Assembly (NCBI GenBank): GCA_029260165.1
Contig: JAJDDT010000053.1
Span: 1-64,000, forward strand
Origin: Phycisphaerae bacterium
Lineage (GTDB): Bacteria; Planctomycetota; Phycisphaerae; UBA1845
Reading direction: 5' to 3'
DNA length: 64,000 nt
Position 1 is the stretch's first letter. Every line of letters starts with the position of its first letter. Positions 39,580 through 61,188 of the stretch are shown here, piece after piece. Under the pieces are notes generated by a model, which worked only from the letters and a program-made list of their open reading frames with translations, did no database searches and had not been told where the DNA came from. Position numbers and translations under genes: made by a program.

Positions 39580-42500
39580 TCAGCCGGCGTCCGGACTCCC
39601 GAACAATTGCTGAAAATCGCCGTAATCGAGCACGTCAATAGCGCCGCTGCCATCGATGTCGGCACTGGCACAATCGCCTTCATTGGCGTCCGGGTCCATA
39701 CCGACGCAGTTGGTGAAGAGATCGAAGTCGCCCAGGTCGGTATCACCATCTCCGTCGATGTCGCCGCTTGGTTCCTTGCCGGCGATCAGGGTCAACTCGA
39801 CGTCAATGCGAGCACCGCAGAACAAGGTATCGTTGGCGATGCCCCGATACATTCCCGGTTCCAGCGACTTATCAATATGCCATGCGATGGCCCCCGCATC
39901 CATGTCCACCAACTCCAGCGTCTCAATCAACTCGAATCCCTGTTTAACACGAAAGATGTTAAATCGAAACTGTCCGATCGGGTGAAAATAGTCCCATTTG
40001 AACTGTACCGTTGTTCCGATCTCCACTTCCATGCCCGTTTTGGGTTCCGTCAGTGCGATCACCGGCAGGTCGCCGCTCCCCTCACCCAGGATCGAGAAGG
40101 GTGGAGAAACGGACACCGAAGGTGGTGTGTATTCAGCATGGGTCAGTTGATATCGATAGCCATCGTCGGCTCGCAGCGCCGGACAAAGCGTCAATGTCAT
40201 GGACCCGTCAGTGATCGGGCGGCAGCGCCCCAGGCCGATACGACCGCAATCGCGATACAGACTTGTGCAAATGGTCCCCTCTATTTCGGTGTCCCAGGCG
40301 ATCTCAATCGAGTCACCAGCCATGAACGCTTCGCCGGGCGTGTTGGGGCTTAGGACCGTAATCAATTCCGGGTTGTCCGTTGGGACGCCACACGGAGCGC
40401 ACGGTTGCCCGTTCAAAGACCCGTCGTATGGCTCGACGTCCTGGAGGGGATTGAACACCAACGGGCAGTTATCACAAGCGTCCGCGACTCCATCGCCGTC
40501 GATGTCCACCTCGCAATCGTCGGGCAAGCCGTTTCCGTCGCAGTCCGGCTCCTCCTCATTGGGAACCCCGTCGCCATCGCAATCAATCTCGCAGTCGTCC
40601 GGGATGCCGTTGCCGTCTGAATCCGATTCGCAGTCGTCAATCGAGCCGTCGCCGTCGCAGTCCGTTTCGACATGATCCGGAACACCATTCACGTTGCAGT
40701 CTTCGGACAAACCCAGTTCGATCTCGAGCTCGTCCGGGATACCGTCGCCATCGGCATCGGACTCCGCGCCGTTGGGCAGGCCATCGCCGTCACTGTCGGC
40801 GTCGCAGTCATCGGGAATCCGATTGTGGTCTGCGTCAGGCTCGCTGCCTGGCGGCACACCGTCTTCATCACAGTCCTCGTCGATGACACAGGGTGGATTG
40901 TTGCGGAATTTTCTCATGCCAATAACGAACATGTCGGGATCGGACAATAGCCTGAATCCCATGACACCACAAGGTTCGCATCTGGCCGCAGAAACAACCA
41001 CCTGTTGCGGGCTGACGGCAGGGTCAGGGTTGAGGTAATCGAAAATCGTATTGATGAAAAATGGGGAGATCTCAAACGTGTCATTGCACCGGATATCCAG
41101 GTCCTGGACAAATGAGATTCCTTTCAGGAAATGGAACTCACTGAAAACAATTTCGTTGTTCAGGAAATGACGAAGAGTGACACGTTGCGCATGAATCACC
41201 GGTACGTCGAAGAACAGCTTGTCACCGATCTGGTGATTTGGTATCTGGACCGCGTGAATCGCACCCTTTTGGCCCTGAAAGTCGACGTATTGAAAGAGGT
41301 CGGGGGATCCATTGTCCTCATTGAAGGATCTGATGGTACCGAATCCGGTGATCGAGCCATTCTCGGAAAGAATGCTCACTCCGTCACCGTCGAGCCTGAT
41401 GTCGCCACCGACCATGTTCTGATCAGCATCGCCAAGACTGATATCACCACCTCGCGTTTGTGAGAGCGTGCGCGCGATGCGCACAACACCGGTCTTGGCC
41501 TCGAATCTGCCCGAGGTGGTGACACGAACCTCCAGGTCGGCCGTTGGCGAGATGTCGACATCCCCACAATCGTCGCAAAGGTACTGTTCAAATCGCATTG
41601 TGCCTTCGTTGAGAAGCACGGGCGGATCGAATTTCGAGGGGCTGTCCGGTATGATACGCGATCCTTCGAGCACCTGGATCGTCGAAGATTCCCGATTCGT
41701 TATGTCACCGTCAAGTCGCAGCGTCCCATTGGTGAAGAACTCAGGACCAATCCCCTCATTACCCTGCAGATCGCGCCCGAGAAACAGATAGTGGTCAGGC
41801 AAAACGCGATCCTGTGGAAGTGTCAGCTTCGCCCCGCCATACACCTGGACGATTCCTGGCTGGATTGGCGTTTGGTCATCCGAGCAACCCACCTCGATTT
41901 TCGCCGTTTCGCCGCAGATGACCAACGTGCCGATTTGGTCTTCTGTCGAAGTGCGAAATGTTCCTCCACAAGCGTCAACGCGACTGACGAACGGAGAGCA
42001 GACTGTCGCGGTGGCGCCCGTGGCCACATACATACGGCTCGCGGTCATGCTTTGGGCAGTTAATGTCGCAGGCATCGCCTCCGGAATCTCAGGAAAATGG
42101 CAGCAATGATCGAGTTGCTGTTGCGTAAAATTGCCGACCACGATGGCACCCACTCCAGCCGTATCTATCTCCCCGCCGATCTCGGCCGTCCCGCTTGGCG
42201 CAACCCACAACCCACTGACGGTGGCGTCTCCAGCGACCTCAAGCGTTCCGAACACCCACGGGTTGGCACTACCTGACAGCGAGAGTACGTTCAGCGTGCC
42301 ACCACCAAGCACCTGAAGGAGAGATGCCCTGACCGCACCGCCTGTGACGTTGTGTCTGATGAAAACTCGGTCGACTTGTCCAGGACTGGGTATGCAGGCG
42401 CATTCGTTCGGTGTTTTCGGCAAACAATCAGGTAAGACGTTTCCCCACGTAGCAGGTGATGACCAACTGCCGTCTTGCTGTGACGTGTACATGCATCCTG

Positions 42501-42588
42501 GTGGCGCACTGTCGGCGAGAACCGATTTTCCAGTGCCGAGACAGATCAGACCGATAATTACAGCCGAATTCAAACGTACCCAATACAT
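39580..42588 (-). CDS. secreted G8-like/TSP3-like surface protein with dockerin-like end (paralogue 1)
   Basis: 1002 residues. Signal peptide from MYWVRLNSAVIIGLI. The first mature section has DGSWSSPATWGN and DRVFIRHNVTGG, resembling a G8 domain, followed by a long beta-helix-like region. Residues about 560-710 are an Asp-rich calcium-binding array (DADSDGDGLPNGAESDADGD and similar). Near 935-1000 lies a dockerin-like pair (DIDGDGDTDLGDFDLF and ADIDGSGAIDVLDYGDF). It is a tandem paralogue of 42728-45724. AGGGAG lies seven bases before ATG 42588. A longer in-frame start at 42642 would cover the conserved leader. Confidence 0.87.
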   Translation of the reverse strand: MYWVRLNSAVIIGLICLGTGKSVLADSAPPGCMYTSQQDGSWSSPATWGNVLPDCLPKTPNECACIPSPGQVDRVFIRHNVTGGAVRASLLQVLGGGTLNVLSLSGSANPWVFGTLEVAGDATVSGLWVAPSGTAEIGGEIDTAGVGAIVVGNFTQQQLDHCCHFPEIPEAMPATLTAQSMTASRMYVATGATATVCSPFVSRVDACGGTFRTSTEDQIGTLVICGETAKIEVGCSDDQTPIQPGIVQVYGGAKLTLPQDRVLPDHYLFLGRDLQGNEGIGPEFFTNGTLRLDGDITNRESSTIQVLEGSRIIPDSPSKFDPPVLLNEGTMRFEQYLCDDCGDVDISPTADLEVRVTTSGRFEAKTGVVRIARTLSQTRGGDISLGDADQNMVGGDIRLDGDGVSILSENGSITGFGTIRSFNEDNGSPDLFQYVDFQGQKGAIHAVQIPNHQIGDKLFFDVPVIHAQRVTLRHFLNNEIVFSEFHFLKGISFVQDLDIRCNDTFEISPFFINTIFDYLNPDPAVSPQQVVVSAARCEPCGVMGFRLLSDPDMFVIGMRKFRNNPPCVIDEDCDEDGVPPGSEPDADHNRIPDDCDADSDGDGLPNGAESDADGDGIPDELEIELGLSEDCNVNGVPDHVETDCDGDGSIDDCESDSDGNGIPDDCEIDCDGDGVPNEEEPDCDGNGLPDDCEVDIDGDGVADACDNCPLVFNPLQDVEPYDGSLNGQPCAPCGVPTDNPELITVLSPNTPGEAFMAGDSIEIAWDTEIEGTICTSLYRDCGRIGLGRCRPITDGSMTLTLCPALRADDGYRYQLTHAEYTPPSVSVSPPFSILGEGSGDLPVIALTEPKTGMEVEIGTTVQFKWDYFHPIGQFRFNIFRVKQGFELIETLELVDMDAGAIAWHIDKSLEPGMYRGIANDTLFCGARIDVELTLIAGKEPSGDIDGDGDTDLGDFDLFTNCVGMDPDANEGDCASADIDGSGAIDVLDYGDFQQLFGSPDAG

Positions 42589-42670
42589 GCAACAACTCCC
42601 TTTCGGGGCAATTTGCGTCCGATAAGTGTTTCCGTTTGGCATCGCCTGAATGGAACGGTCCCATCCCGCA
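42589..42670 (-). promoter_or_regulatory. conserved 82-nt leader, copy 1
   Basis: Matches 45725-45806 at 81 of 82 bases. On the transcript, CCGTT pairs with AACGG around an inner GGC/GCC hairpin, and CCC-CGAAA-GGG overlaps the ribosome-binding site. Could be a regulatory leader; unknown. Confidence 0.6.
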
Positions 42671-42727: not shown

Positions 42728-45724
42728 CTACATTGGTCCGGTAAACATGGCCTGGAACCGGGCGAAGTCGAGCACGTCTACGGCACCGCTGCCGTCGATG
42801 TCGGCTGTAGCGCAGGTACCGCCGACGCTGGGGTCCATGCCGACGCAGTCGGTGAGAAGATCAAAATCACCCAGGTCCGTATCACCATCGCCGTCGATGT
42901 CGCCACTGGGATCATTCGCGGCGATGAGGATCAACGGGTCTACGTCCGCGCTCACGCCGCAGTTGGACAGGTCTCTCACGAACACCGCATAGGTACCAGG
43001 TTCCAAATCCGCCGCGATGGGCCATGCGACGGTGCCGTCGGTCATGTCGACAGGTCCCAGGTTTGCCGCGAATTCAAAGCCTGGGCCGACGCGACGAAAC
43101 ACCGAGAATTGCAATTGCCCGCTTGCGTGGAAGTGATCCCATGTAAACTGGACCGTCGAACCGATCTTCACCTCGGAATTCTCATCCGGTCCTGTCATGA
43201 CGATCACCGGCAAATCACCGCTCCCCGCACCGCTTATCGAAAATGTCGGGGTCACATTGATGGACAGTGGCCTTGGGGAGTTGACGTGCTGGAGTCGAAT
43301 GCGATAGCCATCGTCGGCACGAAGCTCGGGGCAGAGTGTCACGGTGGCTGACCCGTCTGCAATGGGGTTGCAGGTCAGCCCCACGACAGCTCCGCAATCG
43401 CGGTGCAATGACAGGCACACCAGCCCGGGCAGATCGCTCTCCCAAGCCAGGTCGATCGATTCGCCAGCCATGAATGTTTCGCCCGGAAGTGGGCTTAACA
43501 CGGTCAGCAATTCGGGATTGTCGGTTGGGACGCAACGAGGTTCGCAGAGCTGCCCGTTCAGAAACCCGTCGTCGTTTGGCTCAACGTCCTGGAGGGGATT
43601 GAACACCAACCGGCAGTTGTCGCAAGCGTCGGGAATTCCGTCATCGTCAATGTCCACTTCGCAATCGTCGGGCAAGCCGTTTCCGTCGCAGTCCGGCTCC
43701 TCCTCATTGGGAATTCCATCGCCATTGCAATCAATCTCGCAGTCGTCCGGAATACCGTTTCCGTCTGAGTCCGTTTCGCAGTCGTCAATCACGCCATCAC
43801 CGTCGCAGTCCGTTTCGACATGATCCGGCAGACCGTTCAGATTGCAGTCCTCGGAAAGACCGGATCCGATCTCGGTATCGTCCGGGATGTTGTCGCCATC
43901 AGCATTGGACTCCGCCCCATCGGGCAGGCCATCACCGTCGCTGTCGGCGTCGCAGTCATCGGGAATTTGATTGCCATCCGCGTCAGGCTCACTGCCTGGC
44001 GGCACGCCGTCTCCGTCACAGTCCAGGTCGACAACACAGGGGGGATTGTTTCGGAATTTTCTCATGCCGATAACCCAAAGGTCAGGGGAGGACGAGAGCA
44101 TGAAGCTCAAGACGCCACAAGGCTCGCATCGCGCCCCAGCGACAGTCACCTGTTGCGGAATGAGTGCAGAGTCACTGCCTACATAATCGAAAATCGTTTC
44201 GATGAAGAATGGGGATATCTCAAATGTATCAGCACACTCAATCTCCACGTCATAAACGTATGAGAATCCTTTCAGGAAATGGAACTCGCTGAAAACAACT
44301 TCATTGTTCAGAAAATGCCGGAGAGTGATGTTCTGGGCATGTATCACAGGCACGTCGAAGAACAGCTTATCGCCTTGCATGCCGAATGGGCCGCTTGGAA
44401 GTTGTACCGCGTGAATCGTGCCCTTCCTGCCCTGGAAGTCGACGAATTGGAAGCGGTCGGGAAAATCCTTGTCCTCATTGAAGGATCTGATGGTACCAAA
44501 ACCAGTGATCGAGCCGTTCTCGGAGAGTATGCTCACTTCGTCACCGTCGAGCCTGATGTCGCCGCCGATCAAGTTCTGCCCACTGTCCCCAAGGCGAATA
44601 TCACCACCGCGCGGCTGCGTGAGCGTGCGTGCAATGCGCACAACACCAGTCTTCGCCTCAAAAACACCCGTGTTGGTGACACGAACCTCGAGGTCGGCTG
44701 ATGGGGTGAAGCTGCCATCCTCGCAACCGTCGCAATTGAACTGTTCGAATTGCAGTATTCCTTCGTTGAGAAGCACGGGCGCATCGGTTTTTGAAAGACT
44801 GTAGGGTACGATACGCGATCCTTCGAGCACGCGGATCGTCGAAAACTCCGGATTCGTCATGTCACCGTCGAGTTGCAGCGTACCATTGGTAAAAAACTCT
44901 GTAATTTCAACAAGAGGATTATCAGATATGCGCCCGAGGTTCAAATGGGCGCTTGGTTGAACACGATCCCCGGGTATCGTCAATGTGGCGCCACCGAAAA
45001 CCTCGACAACAAGCGGTTGGATCGGCGTTGGGCCTGATGAGCAATCGGTGGCGACCCTGGCCGTTTCACCGCACATAGCCAGTGTGCCGATAATCGCACT
45101 GGTCGACGTCTTGAATGTCCCACCACACACATCAACACGACCCACGGTGGGGAAACACACCCTGGCTGTCGCGCCGGTACCAACAGTTATGCTGTTTCCT
45201 GTGAACCTGGTGACAAAAGCGGTCGCCACCCCCTCGTCCGGGAGATGTCCATTTTTGCAACAGTTCACGGGGGGGTTGCCCACAAGCAAGTCGGACGCAT
45301 TCAACGTTTCGCCTACGCTGAGCAACCCACCTGGGCGAACAATCACGCCATTGGAAATCATCCCGAATTCGACATCCATTGTGCCACCGATGGAGAATCC
45401 GTCTATGGCACCGATGACGGTTTTGACGTTGAGATTGGCACCGGGGAATACGTCTACGGAAAACCCACCGACAGCCCCCCCAGTCACGTTGGAGTGGATT
45501 TCGACGATGTCCCGCTGGCTTGACCTCGGCGTGCAGGCGCAATCGCCGGGTTTCTGCGGCTCGCAATCGGGAGAAACGTTTCCCCAGGTCGACGGCGACG
45601 ACCAACTGCCGTCTTTAACCGACGAATAGTTACATATCATCCCTTCAACGGCGAGGACCGTCGACGAGGTAAAAGAACAAAGCAGACCGATAATAACCAC
45701 CGAATTCAAGCGAGACCAATACAT
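42728..45724 (-). CDS. secreted G8-like/TSP3-like surface protein with dockerin-like end (paralogue 2)
   Basis: 998 residues, same domain order as the gene at 39580: signal peptide, DGSWSSPSTWGN, beta-helix-like region with FDYVGSDSALIPQQVTVAGA, Asp-rich array (about 560-705), then a CDNCRLVFNPLQ segment, a domain with GETFMAGESIDLAWESDL, and a dockerin-like end (DIDGDGDTDLGDFDLL, ADIDGSGAVDVLDFARF). The Asp-rich array and the C-terminal module are the best conserved parts; the N-terminal third diverges. The tandem position and near-identical leader point to duplication. Surface exposure is inferred. Confidence 0.87.
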   Translation of the reverse strand: MYWSRLNSVVIIGLLCSFTSSTVLAVEGMICNYSSVKDGSWSSPSTWGNVSPDCEPQKPGDCACTPRSSQRDIVEIHSNVTGGAVGGFSVDVFPGANLNVKTVIGAIDGFSIGGTMDVEFGMISNGVIVRPGGLLSVGETLNASDLLVGNPPVNCCKNGHLPDEGVATAFVTRFTGNSITVGTGATARVCFPTVGRVDVCGGTFKTSTSAIIGTLAMCGETARVATDCSSGPTPIQPLVVEVFGGATLTIPGDRVQPSAHLNLGRISDNPLVEITEFFTNGTLQLDGDMTNPEFSTIRVLEGSRIVPYSLSKTDAPVLLNEGILQFEQFNCDGCEDGSFTPSADLEVRVTNTGVFEAKTGVVRIARTLTQPRGGDIRLGDSGQNLIGGDIRLDGDEVSILSENGSITGFGTIRSFNEDKDFPDRFQFVDFQGRKGTIHAVQLPSGPFGMQGDKLFFDVPVIHAQNITLRHFLNNEVVFSEFHFLKGFSYVYDVEIECADTFEISPFFIETIFDYVGSDSALIPQQVTVAGARCEPCGVLSFMLSSSPDLWVIGMRKFRNNPPCVVDLDCDGDGVPPGSEPDADGNQIPDDCDADSDGDGLPDGAESNADGDNIPDDTEIGSGLSEDCNLNGLPDHVETDCDGDGVIDDCETDSDGNGIPDDCEIDCNGDGIPNEEEPDCDGNGLPDDCEVDIDDDGIPDACDNCRLVFNPLQDVEPNDDGFLNGQLCEPRCVPTDNPELLTVLSPLPGETFMAGESIDLAWESDLPGLVCLSLHRDCGAVVGLTCNPIADGSATVTLCPELRADDGYRIRLQHVNSPRPLSINVTPTFSISGAGSGDLPVIVMTGPDENSEVKIGSTVQFTWDHFHASGQLQFSVFRRVGPGFEFAANLGPVDMTDGTVAWPIAADLEPGTYAVFVRDLSNCGVSADVDPLILIAANDPSGDIDGDGDTDLGDFDLLTDCVGMDPSVGGTCATADIDGSGAVDVLDFARFQAMFTGPM

Positions 45725-45806
45725 GCAACAACTCCCTTTCGGGGCAATTCGCGTCCGATAAGTGTTTCCGTTTGGCATCGCCTGAATGGAACGGTCCCAT
45801 CCCGCA
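45725..45806 (-). promoter_or_regulatory. conserved 82-nt leader, copy 2
   Basis: Differs from 42589-42670 by a single base, although the adjacent signal-peptide codons have clearly diverged. Confidence 0.6.
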
Positions 45807-52747: not shown

Positions 52748-53311
52748 TTACCCACCCAGAATCAAGCCCAAAACCATCTGAATCGGTAGCAGGGCAAGGA
52801 GGACAAAGGCGGCGATCGTGAGACGGCGTCGAACAGGGATTCGGACCGCGAGTATTGCGCAAACCAGGCCGGCAATCCAAACCAGCAACGACAGGCATCC
52901 CCCCAGCATCAGGACCAGAAACCACGGTGGGATGTCGCCCGCATCGATTTTGTCCTGCAGGAAAGTCAGCATCTCCGGCGTGCTTGGTTGGGCGTTGCCC
53001 ATGTCCCTGGTCATCCCCGGAACGGCGATGGCGGAAGCTGCAAATGAAATTACCAGCCAGCTAATTGACAGCACAATGGCATAGACTGCGAGTGCGTTGC
53101 CTGACCGAGCGGGGAAATCCTGTGGCGGCAGAGAGGAGGCGGGTTGTCCCATCGGTTGGGCCATCGGAATTCCCTCCGAAGGCAGATAGGTCGACATCGC
53201 GGGGGCAGTCACTGTGTTGTGACAATACGGGCAGGCCACGGGTTTTCTGCCCCATATATCGTCGATCTCGATCGGGTTTCCGCACGATGGACATGCAAAC
53301 TGGATAGACAT
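52748..53311 (-). CDS. zinc-ribbon multi-pass membrane protein
   Basis: 187 residues. It opens MSIQFACPSCGNPIEIDD with two CxxC pairs (CPSCG and CPYCHN), a proline-rich linker (MGQPASSLPPQDFPARSG), then three hydrophobic helices (about 75-97, 130-160 and 165-187). The design, a cytosolic zinc ribbon plus a DUF4190-like membrane domain, is frequent in planctomycetes. Function unknown. The start at 53311 is the natural begin of the ribbon; a longer frame is open to 53410. Confidence 0.78.
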   Translation of the reverse strand: MSIQFACPSCGNPIEIDDIWGRKPVACPYCHNTVTAPAMSTYLPSEGIPMAQPMGQPASSLPPQDFPARSGNALAVYAIVLSISWLVISFAASAIAVPGMTRDMGNAQPSTPEMLTFLQDKIDAGDIPPWFLVLMLGGCLSLLVWIAGLVCAILAVRIPVRRRLTIAAFVLLALLPIQMVLGLILGG

Positions 53312-53427
53312 GGCTGGACGATAGCGGGCCGATATCGCATGGTCAATCGTCGTTGACGGATGTTTCAAACGTTCGTCAACGACGACGGTTACCCATGAAT
53401 TGGTGGACAAACAATCCGTGATATCCG

Positions 53428-56578: not shown

Positions 56579-58279
56579 TCAATTCGGGGCGACAAGGTTG
56601 AGGAAGGACAAGTCCATCGATTTTCGCCCGGTGCTGAATTTGGTCAGCTTCACGCCCGGGTCGACGAGAAACAGGTAGACAAGCTGATAGTCGCCACGGT
56701 CGAAATGACGTTTTTTGACGAGGCGAAAATCACGAATTCCACCTCGATTGCTCCCCGAAACCGCTTCGGGATAGTACTGAACCTCGATCACCTGCTCACC
56801 GTCAACGTCTGCCACCACAAACTGACCGTAGACCGGAATCCGATTTCCCTGCTCATCGGTCAGTGTGTAGTTCTTCACGCTCGTGACGGCGAATTGCAAA
56901 GCCTTGCCGAGTGTGCTGCCCGCCTGCAATTTGCGAACGTCCAGTTGGAACATTCGCTTGTCGCTCGGAATCGTGAACGTCGAAATCCTGCGGCTTGATC
57001 CGCTCGACTGGTCCGCGACTTTTCCGTAAACATGTCCGGTCGAAAGATCGCTCCCGCGACCGTCGGCACCGGTGGCTTGATAACTGGTCAGCGCCATCGG
57101 AATCTCATTGGAGAATCGATGGCCTTGACTGCCCAAACGGACCCCGGAGACCCGCCCGCTGTTGTTGGGCGACGACGGTTTTGAAGAAAGAAAGCCCGAC
57201 GATAATGACGACGCCGTGGTCGATGGCGTCGACTTCGGTGCAGGCGGGGCGTCTCCCGATCCTTGCCCGGAGGTCTTGGGAATCTTCACCCTCGCCCCGA
57301 TCTTGTACTCCACAAACTCCGGAACAAACGATTCGGGTACCTCAAACACAACCGACACCTCGCCATCGTTGTATGGAGCGTAGAGTTTTTCATCCACAAT
57401 TGTGTAGGGTGACTGCTGAGGATCCTCGTCGTCCTGAATCGCCACCGGCGACTTGTTTACGTTTGGCCCGCTCTCGTTGTCCGTGCCGACAAGGCGGATT
57501 TGTCGACGAGCGAAACGATGCTTGTCGTCCTCGTCCTTCGCCTCAGACAGCAGCGCGATCCGCACGAGCAGGTATTCGTGTCCATCTGCCGGATTGACCC
57601 GATCCGGGGATTCACCACGTTTCTTTTTTTTCCGGAATATGTACGGCAATTCCCCCTGGCCTCGTTCTATTCTCACGAATCTGATTGATTCGGGAGGCAC
57701 GAGGTGACGCGTGTCGTAGTGGGCTGACTGACTCCAGGATATTTCCTCGATGAAGTCGGGATGATCCTCGGAAAATGGCCGATTCCCGCCGAACATCCCG
57801 TCCGAAAGGAAGGACGCCATGTGTACCGCGAACTGATCCGGACCCATCCATAGACTGTTCACCTCGCCGGATTCGACATCGAGGCTCTGGAAACCGAGAA
57901 AAGAGTTACCAAACGGTGTCATGCGAATGGTGATCCCCAACATGCCCGTTACGACAAAGGCAGCCACGATAGCGCACCCCGTACCCAACACCCGATCGAT
58001 CAGCGCAGGTATGAGGTTCGATCTGCCGACATAGTGATCCAGCACCAATCGCAACACAATCAAGGGCGTAACAAACGTCCCGATGAATGCGGCGGGCAAC
58101 GCAAGGTCTCCCAGCGGGCCCATCAAAACCTCGATCGCCACCCACTCGTAGGTCGCGAACGCAAACACCGCACACAAAATCGCCAGCACGCACGCGATCA
58201 TCGCGCTGACCAGACCCTGAATGAGCTGCAAATACGCAACCGCCACCAACATCGCCAACAGGAACAGCGAAAGCCACAT
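56579..58279 (-). CDS. CvpA-family membrane protein with large C-terminal domain
   Basis: 566 residues. Four membrane helices (about 4-22, 26-48, 58-80, 98-118) match the CvpA/colicin V production fold, with GLVSAMIACVLAILCAVFAF and the DRVLGTGCAIVAAFVVTG turn. The remaining 440 residues are hydrophilic, with a Ser/Pro-rich linker (about 350-395) and a beta-rich end (VYGQFVVADVDGEQVIEVQYYP). That extension is much larger than in ordinary CvpA. It begins 11 bp after the GspE-like gene, so the three genes from pilT are one operon. Confidence 0.82.
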   Translation of the reverse strand: MWLSLFLLAMLVAVAYLQLIQGLVSAMIACVLAILCAVFAFATYEWVAIEVLMGPLGDLALPAAFIGTFVTPLIVLRLVLDHYVGRSNLIPALIDRVLGTGCAIVAAFVVTGMLGITIRMTPFGNSFLGFQSLDVESGEVNSLWMGPDQFAVHMASFLSDGMFGGNRPFSEDHPDFIEEISWSQSAHYDTRHLVPPESIRFVRIERGQGELPYIFRKKKKRGESPDRVNPADGHEYLLVRIALLSEAKDEDDKHRFARRQIRLVGTDNESGPNVNKSPVAIQDDEDPQQSPYTIVDEKLYAPYNDGEVSVVFEVPESFVPEFVEYKIGARVKIPKTSGQGSGDAPPAPKSTPSTTASSLSSGFLSSKPSSPNNSGRVSGVRLGSQGHRFSNEIPMALTSYQATGADGRGSDLSTGHVYGKVADQSSGSSRRISTFTIPSDKRMFQLDVRKLQAGSTLGKALQFAVTSVKNYTLTDEQGNRIPVYGQFVVADVDGEQVIEVQYYPEAVSGSNRGGIRDFRLVKKRHFDRGDYQLVYLFLVDPGVKLTKFSTGRKSMDLSFLNLVAPN

Positions 58280-58290
58280 GATAAATTCCG

Positions 58291-59961
58291 TTACTTCTTC
58301 GCGCTGTCTCGTAATCCGCGAATGATTTCGTCGAGGCTTGTCGAACCATTGATAACCTTCAACAAGCCAGCCTCCTGAAGATAATACATTTTATGCGCCC
58401 GCGCCTGAGCCTTGATCTGCTTGATCGGTGCCCCGCCCGCGATCAGTTTCCTCACTTTTTCATCAATTTCCAGCAGCTCAAAAACCGCGGTTCGGCCAAC
58501 GTATCCGCTGCCCTGGCAGGACTGACAGATGATCTCGCGACCCTTCTTGTCAAAAACAGCCTCGGTTGGCGGGCGGTGAAAATTCTCAATTTTGTTGACA
58601 GGCAGATTTGCTTTTCTCAGCAGACTCTCATCGGGTTTGAACGACTGCCGACAGGAACCGCAAAGCAGGCGAACAAGTCGCTGATTGATCACTCCGATCA
58701 CGCTGTTGGCAACGAGTTTGTTATCCTCCGCGAAGTTCATCAATCGCGACAATGCGTCAAACGTGCTCTTCGCTTCGATGGCCATGTAAACCTTTCGACC
58801 ACCCTCCGCCGCCCGAAGTGCGATTTGAGCGGTCTCGCGGTCCTCACAATGACCAACGCCGACAATGTCAGGCTCGCGACGGAGCACGCTCTGCAACTGA
58901 CGGGCAAAGCTGACATCGCTCGACGCCCCCTTGTGTTCCGCCTGTGTAATGTTATCAAGTTCGTATAGAGGCCTGGACTCCAGTGTGTGGATGTTCTCCA
59001 TGAACGCGTCATGCTCGCGCAGAATGGAATAAAGCGTCGTCGTCACCCCGCTCTGATTCGGTCCGCTGACCACGAACAACCCGCCGTCCCGCTTGATAAA
59101 CGTCCTGACCAACTCCAGTCTTGACGATGCCAACCCAATCTCGCCAAGTCGTCTTTTGCTGGCTGACTGCTGCACACGAATCCGAACCCGCTCGCCAAGT
59201 GTCGAACCCGAAGTTACCACGCCGATTCGACTCATTTCCGCATCACCGAGAAGACCCGCAAAAAACGCGCCCTCCTGCGGACGGCGGATTTCATCCGGAT
59301 TGAGGCCCGCGAGCTTTTTGATGAACGTCAACGCACGCTCACCCTCCTCCCGCGAGACCACGTCCTCCCGGGAACTCGTCACCCCGTCGATCTTGTAGAC
59401 GAGACGAAGCTCCTCCTTCCCAACGAGAATCTCCGCATCCGACGACCGCCGCCACAAAATGTCGAACATTAGATCCTGTACCGCTGCATAATGTTCAAAC
59501 GCCTCGCGGTCGGTCGGTCGGCCAATGTCTTTTTGCGTATGGTCCGCGAGCTGAATTCGCTGGCCCTTGTCGATTTTGGCGGTCTCGTCCTTTTCTCCGC
59601 CCGCGACAATTCGCTTCAAATGAGCAATCGTCAGGACCTTTTGATCCGGAATCACCCGCCCGTTTCGATGCATGACGTAAAGCAGCACCGACCCGCCAGC
59701 CATAACGATGTAAAACGCTAATCCAAGAAAATACGCGCTGCCCGCCCAGGGGATCAGAAACATGATCGCCAATCCGCCAAGGCCGCCGACAAGAACGATG
59801 AGGTTCCATCGCTCACGACGCGTCTTGACCCGATCCGTATCAATGTCGACCCATTGATAAGCGAAGCAGATACCCACAAACAAAACCGCAACGACACCGA
59901 GTTTGATGAGGCTGAAATATTCCGCAGGCCCGGAGACCTGCAGCAGAATGGTCAGATTCAT
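58291..59961 (-). CDS. GspE/PilB-like protein with altered nucleotide-binding motifs (pseudo-ATPase)
   Basis: 556 residues. Three N-terminal hydrophobic helices (about 15-38, 52-73, 76-97) are unusual for this normally cytosolic family. Then follow an N2-like domain and the RecA-like core. Walker A reads GPNQSGVTTT, with Val306 in place of the essential Lys. Walker B/Asp box reads VGVGHCEDRETA, with His371 where the family has Glu. The tetracysteine zinc motif (CGSCRQS and CQSCQGSG) is intact. Frame and coding pattern are sound, so this is not a decayed gene. A structural or regulatory partner of an active ATPase is a likely role. Confidence 0.88.
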   Translation of the reverse strand: MNLTILLQVSGPAEYFSLIKLGVVAVLFVGICFAYQWVDIDTDRVKTRRERWNLIVLVGGLGGLAIMFLIPWAGSAYFLGLAFYIVMAGGSVLLYVMHRNGRVIPDQKVLTIAHLKRIVAGGEKDETAKIDKGQRIQLADHTQKDIGRPTDREAFEHYAAVQDLMFDILWRRSSDAEILVGKEELRLVYKIDGVTSSREDVVSREEGERALTFIKKLAGLNPDEIRRPQEGAFFAGLLGDAEMSRIGVVTSGSTLGERVRIRVQQSASKRRLGEIGLASSRLELVRTFIKRDGGLFVVSGPNQSGVTTTLYSILREHDAFMENIHTLESRPLYELDNITQAEHKGASSDVSFARQLQSVLRREPDIVGVGHCEDRETAQIALRAAEGGRKVYMAIEAKSTFDALSRLMNFAEDNKLVANSVIGVINQRLVRLLCGSCRQSFKPDESLLRKANLPVNKIENFHRPPTEAVFDKKGREIICQSCQGSGYVGRTAVFELLEIDEKVRKLIAGGAPIKQIKAQARAHKMYYLQEAGLLKVINGSTSLDEIIRGLRDSAKK

Positions 59962-60057: not shown

Positions 60058-61188
60058 CTAGCCTATGATCCCGCCACTGGAAACCGAAATGCCCTTCAGA
60101 CGCATTTTCAACTCCTCGGGATTCGGGGCAGCCTCATACGCCGCCTGGGCGGAAATATACTCGTTTTCGACCAGATAGCGAAGGGATTCGGTGAAATCCT
60201 GCATACCCTCCTGAAACGACCCGCGAATCACGCTCAACAGCTCTGTATCACGCTTTTCCTTGATCATCTTCCGAACACTCGGATTCGCAAGCATGATCTC
60301 CACCGCGGGAATTCGCGGGATATCAGGACGAACGCACTTCAAAAGCTTCAAAACGACCACCGCCTGCAGATTGAACACCAGCGACGTCCGAGCCAGCTCG
60401 CGGGCCTCGGGGGGAAACAACTCCAGAACACGCGTCACCGTACTGGCTGCATTCGACGCGTGAACCGTTCCAAACGCGAGGTGCCCGGATTCCGCCGCGT
60501 GAAGGGCTGCTTCAAATGATTCCCTGTCACGCATCTCGCCGATCAGCACCACATCGGGGTCTTCACGCATCAGATATTTCAACGCGTCGTGAAAATCTGT
60601 CACGTCCATCCCGATCTCACGCTGGTTCACAAACGCCTGCTTGTCCTCAAACATGAACTCGATCGGATCCTCCAGCGTGACAATGTGGCACATCCGCGTG
60701 CAGTTGATCTGCTCGATCATGGACGCGATCGTCGTGCTCTTTCCGCTGCCGGTGATGCCGGCCACGAGAACCAGACCCTGCTGGACCGATGCGATTTCCT
60801 TGAGAATCTCCGGAAGGTGTAAATCCTCATATTTCAGAATGTCGCGTGGAATATGCCGCGCCGCGATCGACGTCATGCCCCGCTGGCGAAAAATGTTGAT
60901 GCGAAAACGGTTCTCCCGGTCAAGCTGGTACGAAAAGTCCGTGGACCCGCGGTCCGCATATTGCTGACGCTGTTTGTCACTCATGATATCGAAGATCATC
61001 TTCTCGATCTTCTCATTGGTCAGCGGATCACCGGTCAGGGGGCGCAGTTTCCCCTTGACTCGAACACGGGGGTTCGCGTCCGCCTTGAAATGAATGTCCG
61101 ACGCGCCCATCTGCGACATCGCATCAAAATAACGACAAATTTTAGGCCTTGATTTTTTCCCGGAAGACTTCTTTTCTGATTCGCTCAC
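60058..61188 (-). CDS. pilT: type IV pilus twitching-motility ATPase PilT
   Basis: 376 residues. N-terminal PAS-like domain (MGASDIHFKADANPRVRVKG), then the RecA core with intact Walker A GITGSGKSTT, Asp box TLEDPIEF, Walker B REDPDVVLIGEMRD, and His box GHLAFGTVHASNAA. PilT hexamers drive pilus retraction. GTG start with AAAGGAAA before it. It heads an operon with the pseudo-GspE gene (96 bp on) and the CvpA-like gene. The active PilT may partner the degenerate ATPase. Confidence 0.95.
   Translation of the reverse strand: MSESEKKSSGKKSRPKICRYFDAMSQMGASDIHFKADANPRVRVKGKLRPLTGDPLTNEKIEKMIFDIMSDKQRQQYADRGSTDFSYQLDRENRFRINIFRQRGMTSIAARHIPRDILKYEDLHLPEILKEIASVQQGLVLVAGITGSGKSTTIASMIEQINCTRMCHIVTLEDPIEFMFEDKQAFVNQREIGMDVTDFHDALKYLMREDPDVVLIGEMRDRESFEAALHAAESGHLAFGTVHASNAASTVTRVLELFPPEARELARTSLVFNLQAVVVLKLLKCVRPDIPRIPAVEIMLANPSVRKMIKEKRDTELLSVIRGSFQEGMQDFTESLRYLVENEYISAQAAYEAAPNPEELKMRLKGISVSSGGIIG

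Follow-up and report, generated by a model that had tools for sequence, protein, structure and literature searches.

The gene at 58291-59961 on the minus strand of the window, the 64,000-nt stretch of a Phycisphaerae draft genome (4.43 Mb, 119 contigs) analyzed here, encodes a membrane-anchored pseudo-ATPase of the GspE/PilB family, 556 amino acids long, from which most of the residues that would contact phosphate are gone. Our preferred reading, to which we assign a probability of roughly 0.62, is that the protein has become a catalytically inactive ring or scaffold within a membrane complex that includes the CvpA-like protein, and that PilT can dock on it. The initial annotation of the locus, made from the sequence alone, had proposed a dedicated membrane-bound pseudo-ATPase acting as a docking ring or regulator. 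The first part of this proposal is well supported by class-wide conservation, by a dN/dS of 0.085, by the loss of the Walker A lysine in 98 of 99 Phycisphaerae orthologues, by the three membrane helices, and by the loss of the arginine finger and the HIS box in most Phycisphaerae; the second part describes what is most likely the role of the protein.

The assignment to the GspE/PilB family rests on domain, model and fold searches. A Pfam search places the T2SSE domain (PF00437) at residues 161 to 548 (E = 4.5e-56), and in the AlphaFold model (mean pLDDT, 88.3) a core resembling GspE/PilB comes after three long helices. The top Foldseek matches of this model are Thermus PilF, Geobacter PilB, and Vibrio GspE (E values down to 6e-37), with TM-scores against PilB, PilF, and GspE of up to 0.89 by target length, and the Pfam and Foldseek results together identify the N2D plus CTD fold of the GspE/PilB branch of the PilT/VirB11-like secretion ATPases. 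The tetra-cysteine zinc motif of the GspE/PilB clade is complete, with Cys434, Cys437, Cys479, and Cys482 arranged as CxxC...CxxC in the C-terminal domain (58516-58662, minus strand); the statement in the initial annotation that zinc motif and fold remain is thus borne out. The protein scores well below the NCBIfam equivalog cutoffs for GspE (TIGR02533, 226.6 versus 630.25 bits) and PilB (TIGR02538, 201.4 versus 675.65 bits). Two catalytically intact orthologues likewise fall short of the GspE cutoff (433 and 439 versus 630 bits), and intact members of the subfamily are therefore also outside the curated GspE and PilB models. A search for a defense role with PADLOC gave no match for the pseudo-ATPase.

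Hydropathy identifies three hydrophobic segments near the N terminus, at residues 16 to 34 (59860-59916), 54 to 72 (59746-59802), and 78 to 96 (59674-59730), all on the minus strand, and these correspond to helices 18 to 45, 49 to 69, and 76 to 100 of the model. Helix 1 is predicted to run from the periplasm to the cytoplasm, and the loop between helices 1 and 2, DIDTDRVKTRRERW, is rich in Arg and Lys and is therefore probably cytoplasmic; the positive-inside rule would then place the core on the cytoplasmic side and the N terminus on the opposite side. Helix 3 is followed by a conserved HRNGRV motif and then by the cytoplasmic core; among 66 sequences, Tyr95 and Arg99 are invariant and Asn100 is nearly so. 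The three helices had been described as added to a dead protein. Their presence is confirmed, but the same N-terminal region is found in catalytically intact orthologues of other classes, and the idea of an addition that accompanied inactivation is rejected.

The active site was examined by motif alignment, with residue equivalences set by landmark spacing against Geobacter PilB (PMC5424180). In the P-loop, GPNQSGVTTT (residues 300 to 309; 59035-59064, minus strand), the position of the Walker A lysine is occupied by Val306 (codon 59044-59046), with Gly305 and Thr307 retained. The Walker B/catalytic segment, VGVGHCEDRETA, begins at residue 367 (58828-58863, minus strand) and has His371 in place of the catalytic glutamate, so both of the substitutions listed in the initial annotation are present. 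By spacing, PilB R271 and R286 correspond to Ala232 and Gly247, E395 corresponds to His371, and T411, H413, and H420 correspond to Gly387, Arg389, and Glu396; the arginine finger (R286) is thus a glycine, and the former HIS box (residues 387 to 398; 58768-58803, minus strand) has lost both histidines. PilB R455, an inter-subunit contact, falls on Arg431 by exact spacing, and E357, the Mg-coordinating glutamate of the ASP box, aligns with Glu328; PilB T411 and H413 are part of a nucleotide-dependent inter-subunit contact (PMC5424180). Missing from the window protein are therefore the Walker lysine, the catalytic glutamate, the two arginine fingers, and the pair of HIS-box histidines; still present are the Mg-coordinating residue, Arg431, and the four zinc cysteines. 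None of the sequence tests for an active motor that could be applied to the protein was passed. Six canonical GspE/PilB paralogues encoded in the same genome retain the lysine, the glutamate, and the HIS box. A relocation of the lysine to P-loop position 302 or 303 was considered and rejected, since Lys or Arg occurs inconsistently there and the window protein has Asn and Gln.

Comparison with characterized systems shows what the protein shares with secretion motors and where it departs from them. With PilB/PilF (Thermus PilF, 5oiu and 5it5; Geobacter PilB, 5tsg and 5tsh), which give the best fold matches, it has in common the N2 and C-terminal ATPase domains, the tetra-cysteine zinc domain, and the inter-subunit arginine; unlike them, it has three membrane helices in place of the N1/MshEN domain, has lost the Walker A lysine, arginine finger, HIS box, and catalytic glutamate, and is not adjoined in the window by a gene for a platform protein (PilC). 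GspE/EpsE (1p9r, 4pht, 4ksr) includes the best single-sequence match (1p9r, E = 5e-48) and shares the zinc domain and the QRLVR motif, but the window protein lacks the GspL-binding N1 domain, is self-anchored in the membrane, and is catalytically degenerate; in contrast to GspE, it would presumably need no GspL for membrane attachment. PilT and PilU belong to the same superfamily, and PilT is the upstream neighbor, but the window protein sits on the GspE/PilB branch and lacks the active-site groups, and PilT/PilU have no zinc motif (PMC5424180). PilU, which depends on PilT, is a precedent for an accessory motor (PMC13142100) and is described as an ATPase.

Conservation was assessed in 157 syntenic relatives, of which 99 are from Phycisphaerae. 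These were drawn from the family and order (37 of 40 genomes) and from the class (185 of 298 genomes; E ≤ 1e-70, single sequence), together with 80 loci in named genome records found with an alignment query and with a draw from the whole phylum; a single-sequence search of the named records, by comparison, yielded no confirmed locus. All 80 loci carry planctomycete titles except one titled "bacterium" and one that is evidently mislabeled. The latter, L070 (JANQQE010000014, 228256 bp), is titled "Alphaproteobacteria bacterium," carries the Phycisphaerae module, and is probably a mislabeled bin. In the phylum draw, all 41 Phycisphaerae genomes contain a profile match that spans the membrane region, unlike canonical paralogues, which match the profile only from about residue 100 to 160 onward.

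The Walker A lysine is absent from 98 of the 99 Phycisphaerae orthologues and is kept in all 10 canonical paralogues and all 26 intact-type orthologues, a pattern far beyond chance. Position 306 is instead Val (32 sequences), Leu (30), Ile (15), Arg (12), Met (3), Ala (3), or Thr (2), the remainder being a single Lys (L134) and one other residue. The initial annotation had suggested that conservation of both Val306 and His371 be checked: the loss of lysine is general, with Val the commonest replacement, but His371 is private to the window, where the class otherwise has Glu (49 of 99), Asp (25), or a scatter of other residues. A functional replacement by His371 is accordingly rejected, since His at this position was found only in the window genome. 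Across R247, K306, E371, H389, and H396, none of the five is kept in 43 of the Phycisphaerae sequences, one in 48, and two in 8. Individual zinc cysteines are present in 96 to 99 of the 99, and all four in 96. Close relatives in named records, JANQQK010000036 at 79% protein identity among them, are metagenome-assembled Phycisphaerae of the Planctomycetota. Nei-Gojobori estimates against the nearest relative (79% identity) put dN/dS at 0.085 for the pseudo-ATPase; PilT gives 0.066 and the CvpA-like gene 0.146, ratios that are rough because synonymous sites are near saturation. The pseudo-ATPase gene is thus maintained under purifying selection. The zinc site is also gone in four relatives, with three of four cysteines lost in L156, L157, and L158 (family f10) and all four in L193 (family f120); the zinc domain, too, is therefore not an absolute requirement.

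Outside Phycisphaerae, the same membrane region occurs with complete motifs (GPTGAGKSTTLY, GEIRD, and TGHMVFSTVHAND) in a second class of Planctomycetota, probably Planctomycetia, and in families f59, f73, and f121. The 26 intact-type sequences retain all five catalytic groups, and intact orthologues mostly share the neighbors of the Phycisphaerae locus. The second class also contains a degenerate clade (f93, f102, f119, f126, f127, f129, f130, f132, and f133) in which Leu or some other residue replaces the lysine, as well as single degenerate members of f122, f124, and f125; some f120 members keep the lysine, have Asp at the catalytic glutamate, and lack the HIS box. In one f93 genome (L195, G732), the pseudo-ATPase gene is followed in tandem by a second GspE-like gene, whose product keeps the Walker A lysine and has a degenerate catalytic segment, and then by the CvpA-like gene. 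When the motif columns were left out of the alignment, the resulting gene tree placed the canonical outgroup at its base together with families f59, f73, and f121, each of these groups being intact, and joined all Phycisphaerae with full support. Parsimony on this tree gives two changes between intact and degenerate states. Its deep branches are poorly resolved, and trees constrained to make either the second class or family f120 monophyletic are not rejected (p-AU = 0.475 and 0.565, respectively); any count above two therefore rests on genome taxonomy, which, if followed, would mean four or more losses. Ancestral activity followed by repeated loss is the better-supported direction on this evidence: an active membrane-anchored motor would have lost catalysis at least twice, and probably four or more times.

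The gene order pilT-pseudo-ATPase-cvpA-like is conserved among related loci. In the window, a PilT-family retraction-type ATPase is encoded at 60058-61188 (minus strand), 96 bp upstream of the pseudo-ATPase gene, with a GTG start at 61188 and an alternative ATG at 61119. The description of this neighbor as intact is upheld by its P-loop, GEMRD motif, and HIS box and by a TIGR01420 score of 394.6 bits against a cutoff of 319.1. Beginning 11 bp past the pseudo-ATPase stop codon is a gene for a membrane protein of 566 amino acids (56579-58279, minus strand), which we call CvpA-like on the basis of the Pfam matches of its orthologues. A Pfam search with the window's own protein gave no match, but its orthologues match Colicin_V/CvpA with E values down to 2.4e-13, several of them to PF02674 through the N-terminal membrane region. 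The protein differs from CvpA/Colicin_V in its length and in its C-terminal half, which is predicted to be beta-rich and for which a fold search with the model returned no convincing match. We know of no settled biochemical function for CvpA.

The CvpA-like gene lies directly downstream in 144 of 150 loci, and PilT lies upstream in 110 of 145, making the CvpA-like protein the steadiest partner and PilT a frequent but dispensable one. Two genomes (G009 and G010) keep the pseudo-ATPase and CvpA-like genes and have no close orthologue of the cognate PilT; docking of PilT is thus not the sole or obligatory role. The operon link to PilT drawn in the initial annotation stands as a frequent adjacency, and the case for PilT as an obligate partner is weakened. 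That annotation had recorded neither the steadier association with the CvpA-like gene nor the loss of the arginine finger and HIS box nor the private nature of His371. All three genes are missing from G020, a 96% complete genome of the window's family, which suggests loss as a unit. In four Phycisphaerae loci, a GspE gene with an FHA domain and an intact Walker A motif lies directly upstream of the pseudo-ATPase gene (L101:5957-7846, L109:6127-7872, L110:512-2353, and L112:6037-7797), and its product could be an active partner that is controlled through phosphothreonine. The window contig (C68) was found to carry neither a PilC/GspF nor a secretin gene, leaving the module without a linked platform protein or secretin; the PilC/GspF genes of the genome are on contigs C5, C37, C50, C56, and C90, and its secretin genes are on C50, C56, C89, C103, and C107. 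Near the module, at 52748-53410 (minus strand), is a gene for a 220-amino-acid membrane protein that carries a Cys-rich motif (CPSCG...CPYC) near its N terminus, homologues of which are encoded downstream of the module in L056, L057, L064, L088, L092, and L100. Farther away, two adjacent open reading frames of about 1,020 codons (39580-42642 and 42728-45778, minus strand) encode nearly identical N termini (MPNGNTYRT.IAPKGSCCMYW) and represent a tandemly duplicated gene for a large protein that is probably exported.

What remains of the nucleotide site bears on whether the protein could instead be a nucleotide or phosphate sensor, in which the altered P-loop would bind nucleotide without hydrolyzing it and occupancy would switch a CvpA/PilT complex. 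Binding through main-chain contacts, Thr307, and Glu328-coordinated Mg would agree with the retention of Gly305 (99 of 99 Phycisphaerae), Ser or Thr at 307 (97 of 99), and Glu328 (95 of 99). However, the gamma-phosphate-contacting arginine at the arginine-finger position, 247, is mostly Glu or Asp (60 of 99), both HIS-box histidines are lost (His396 is retained in only 6 of 99), and the second P-loop glycine is variable; these changes disfavor phosphate at the site, and the retained residues may be merely structural, so that we consider a sensor unlikely. Far less credible is an active but unorthodox ATPase in which basic residues such as Arg/Lys389 and Lys390 replace the Walker lysine. Position 389 is His in all 36 intact orthologues and canonical paralogues, as invariant among them as the arginine finger and His396, and is recurrently Lys or Arg in Phycisphaerae (68 of 99) and in other degenerate sequences (26 of 32), and Glu/Asp persists at position 371 in many. 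Against this, position 389 corresponds by spacing to PilB H413, which sits where subunits meet, away from the gamma-phosphate (PMC5424180); finger 247 and His396 have disappeared as well, and the window protein has no catalytic glutamate.

The protein could also be an inactive subunit that tunes a mixed hexamer with active GspE/PilB or PilT, for which one can cite the inter-subunit Arg431, invariant in the class (99 of 99), the active GspE genes that adjoin it in some loci, and the several active paralogues in the genome. We think this improbable, and more so than a sensor: the arginine finger that would serve a neighboring subunit is also gone, leaving the pseudo-ATPase unable to complete the active site of a partner, and most genomes, including that of the window, have no fixed active GspE partner gene linked to it. 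Finally, missing catalytic residues are what one would see in a decaying pseudogene or an annotation artifact, but an open frame of full length in nearly all relatives, purifying selection at the ratio given above, the match across the membrane region in all 41 Phycisphaerae genomes of the phylum draw, and nearly invariant zinc cysteines leave this explanation with practically no standing, and it is rejected.

We therefore return to a dead ring or scaffold as the preferred reading and propose the following. A subfamily of GspE/PilB motors, here found only in planctomycetes, would attach itself to the inner membrane with three helices of its own, not through GspL or PilM, and would descend from a complete ATPase. 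The Walker A lysine, the trans-acting arginine finger, and the HIS-box histidines have disappeared from the Phycisphaerae proteins and, independently, from those of other planctomycete lineages, whereas the fold, the zinc domain, the Mg-coordinating glutamate, and the inter-subunit Arg431 have been maintained under purifying selection. The residues involved argue strongly that canonical catalysis has been lost, and it is very likely that the protein no longer turns over ATP. It may still bind nucleotide, or hydrolyze it slowly by another route, since Gly305, Thr307, and the ASP-box Glu328 remain. The chances seem about even that it assembles independently of nucleotide, as a full or partial ring anchored in the membrane together with the CvpA-like protein. 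That such a ring would position or regulate an active partner motor, either PilT where present or an adjoining active GspE in some lineages, is plausible but somewhat less probable.

A point against a dead ring is the persistence of Glu or Asp at position 371 in 74 of the 99 Phycisphaerae sequences. Position 387 is acidic in 57 of the 99, and an acidic 387 occurs together with a basic 389 in 39 of the 99 and in 12 of the 32 other degenerate sequences; the window protein has Gly387 and Arg389. These recurrent changes hint that the inter-subunit contact has been rebuilt to hold without nucleotide, which we regard as a lead. A bolder version, which we put forward tentatively and would not expect to hold in full, is that each loss of catalysis yielded a permanent, nucleotide-independent ring with a rebuilt 387/389 contact, which forms the core of a previously undescribed envelope machine that contains the CvpA-like protein and can take on PilT as an optional part.

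In the openly accessible journal literature that was searched, we found no description of this pseudo-ATPase family or of class-wide conserved, catalytically dead members of the secretion-motor superfamily. The occurrence of one membrane-anchored protein in intact and dead forms within a single phylum allows a direct test of what a motor fold can do beyond ATP hydrolysis, and the same pairing bears on what selects for giving up catalysis. The results also mark pilT-membrane GspE-cvpA as a conserved planctomycete envelope module and link CvpA, a widespread protein, to the secretion-motor superfamily. If the proposed course of events is true, a series leading from motor to scaffold would be preserved in living species.
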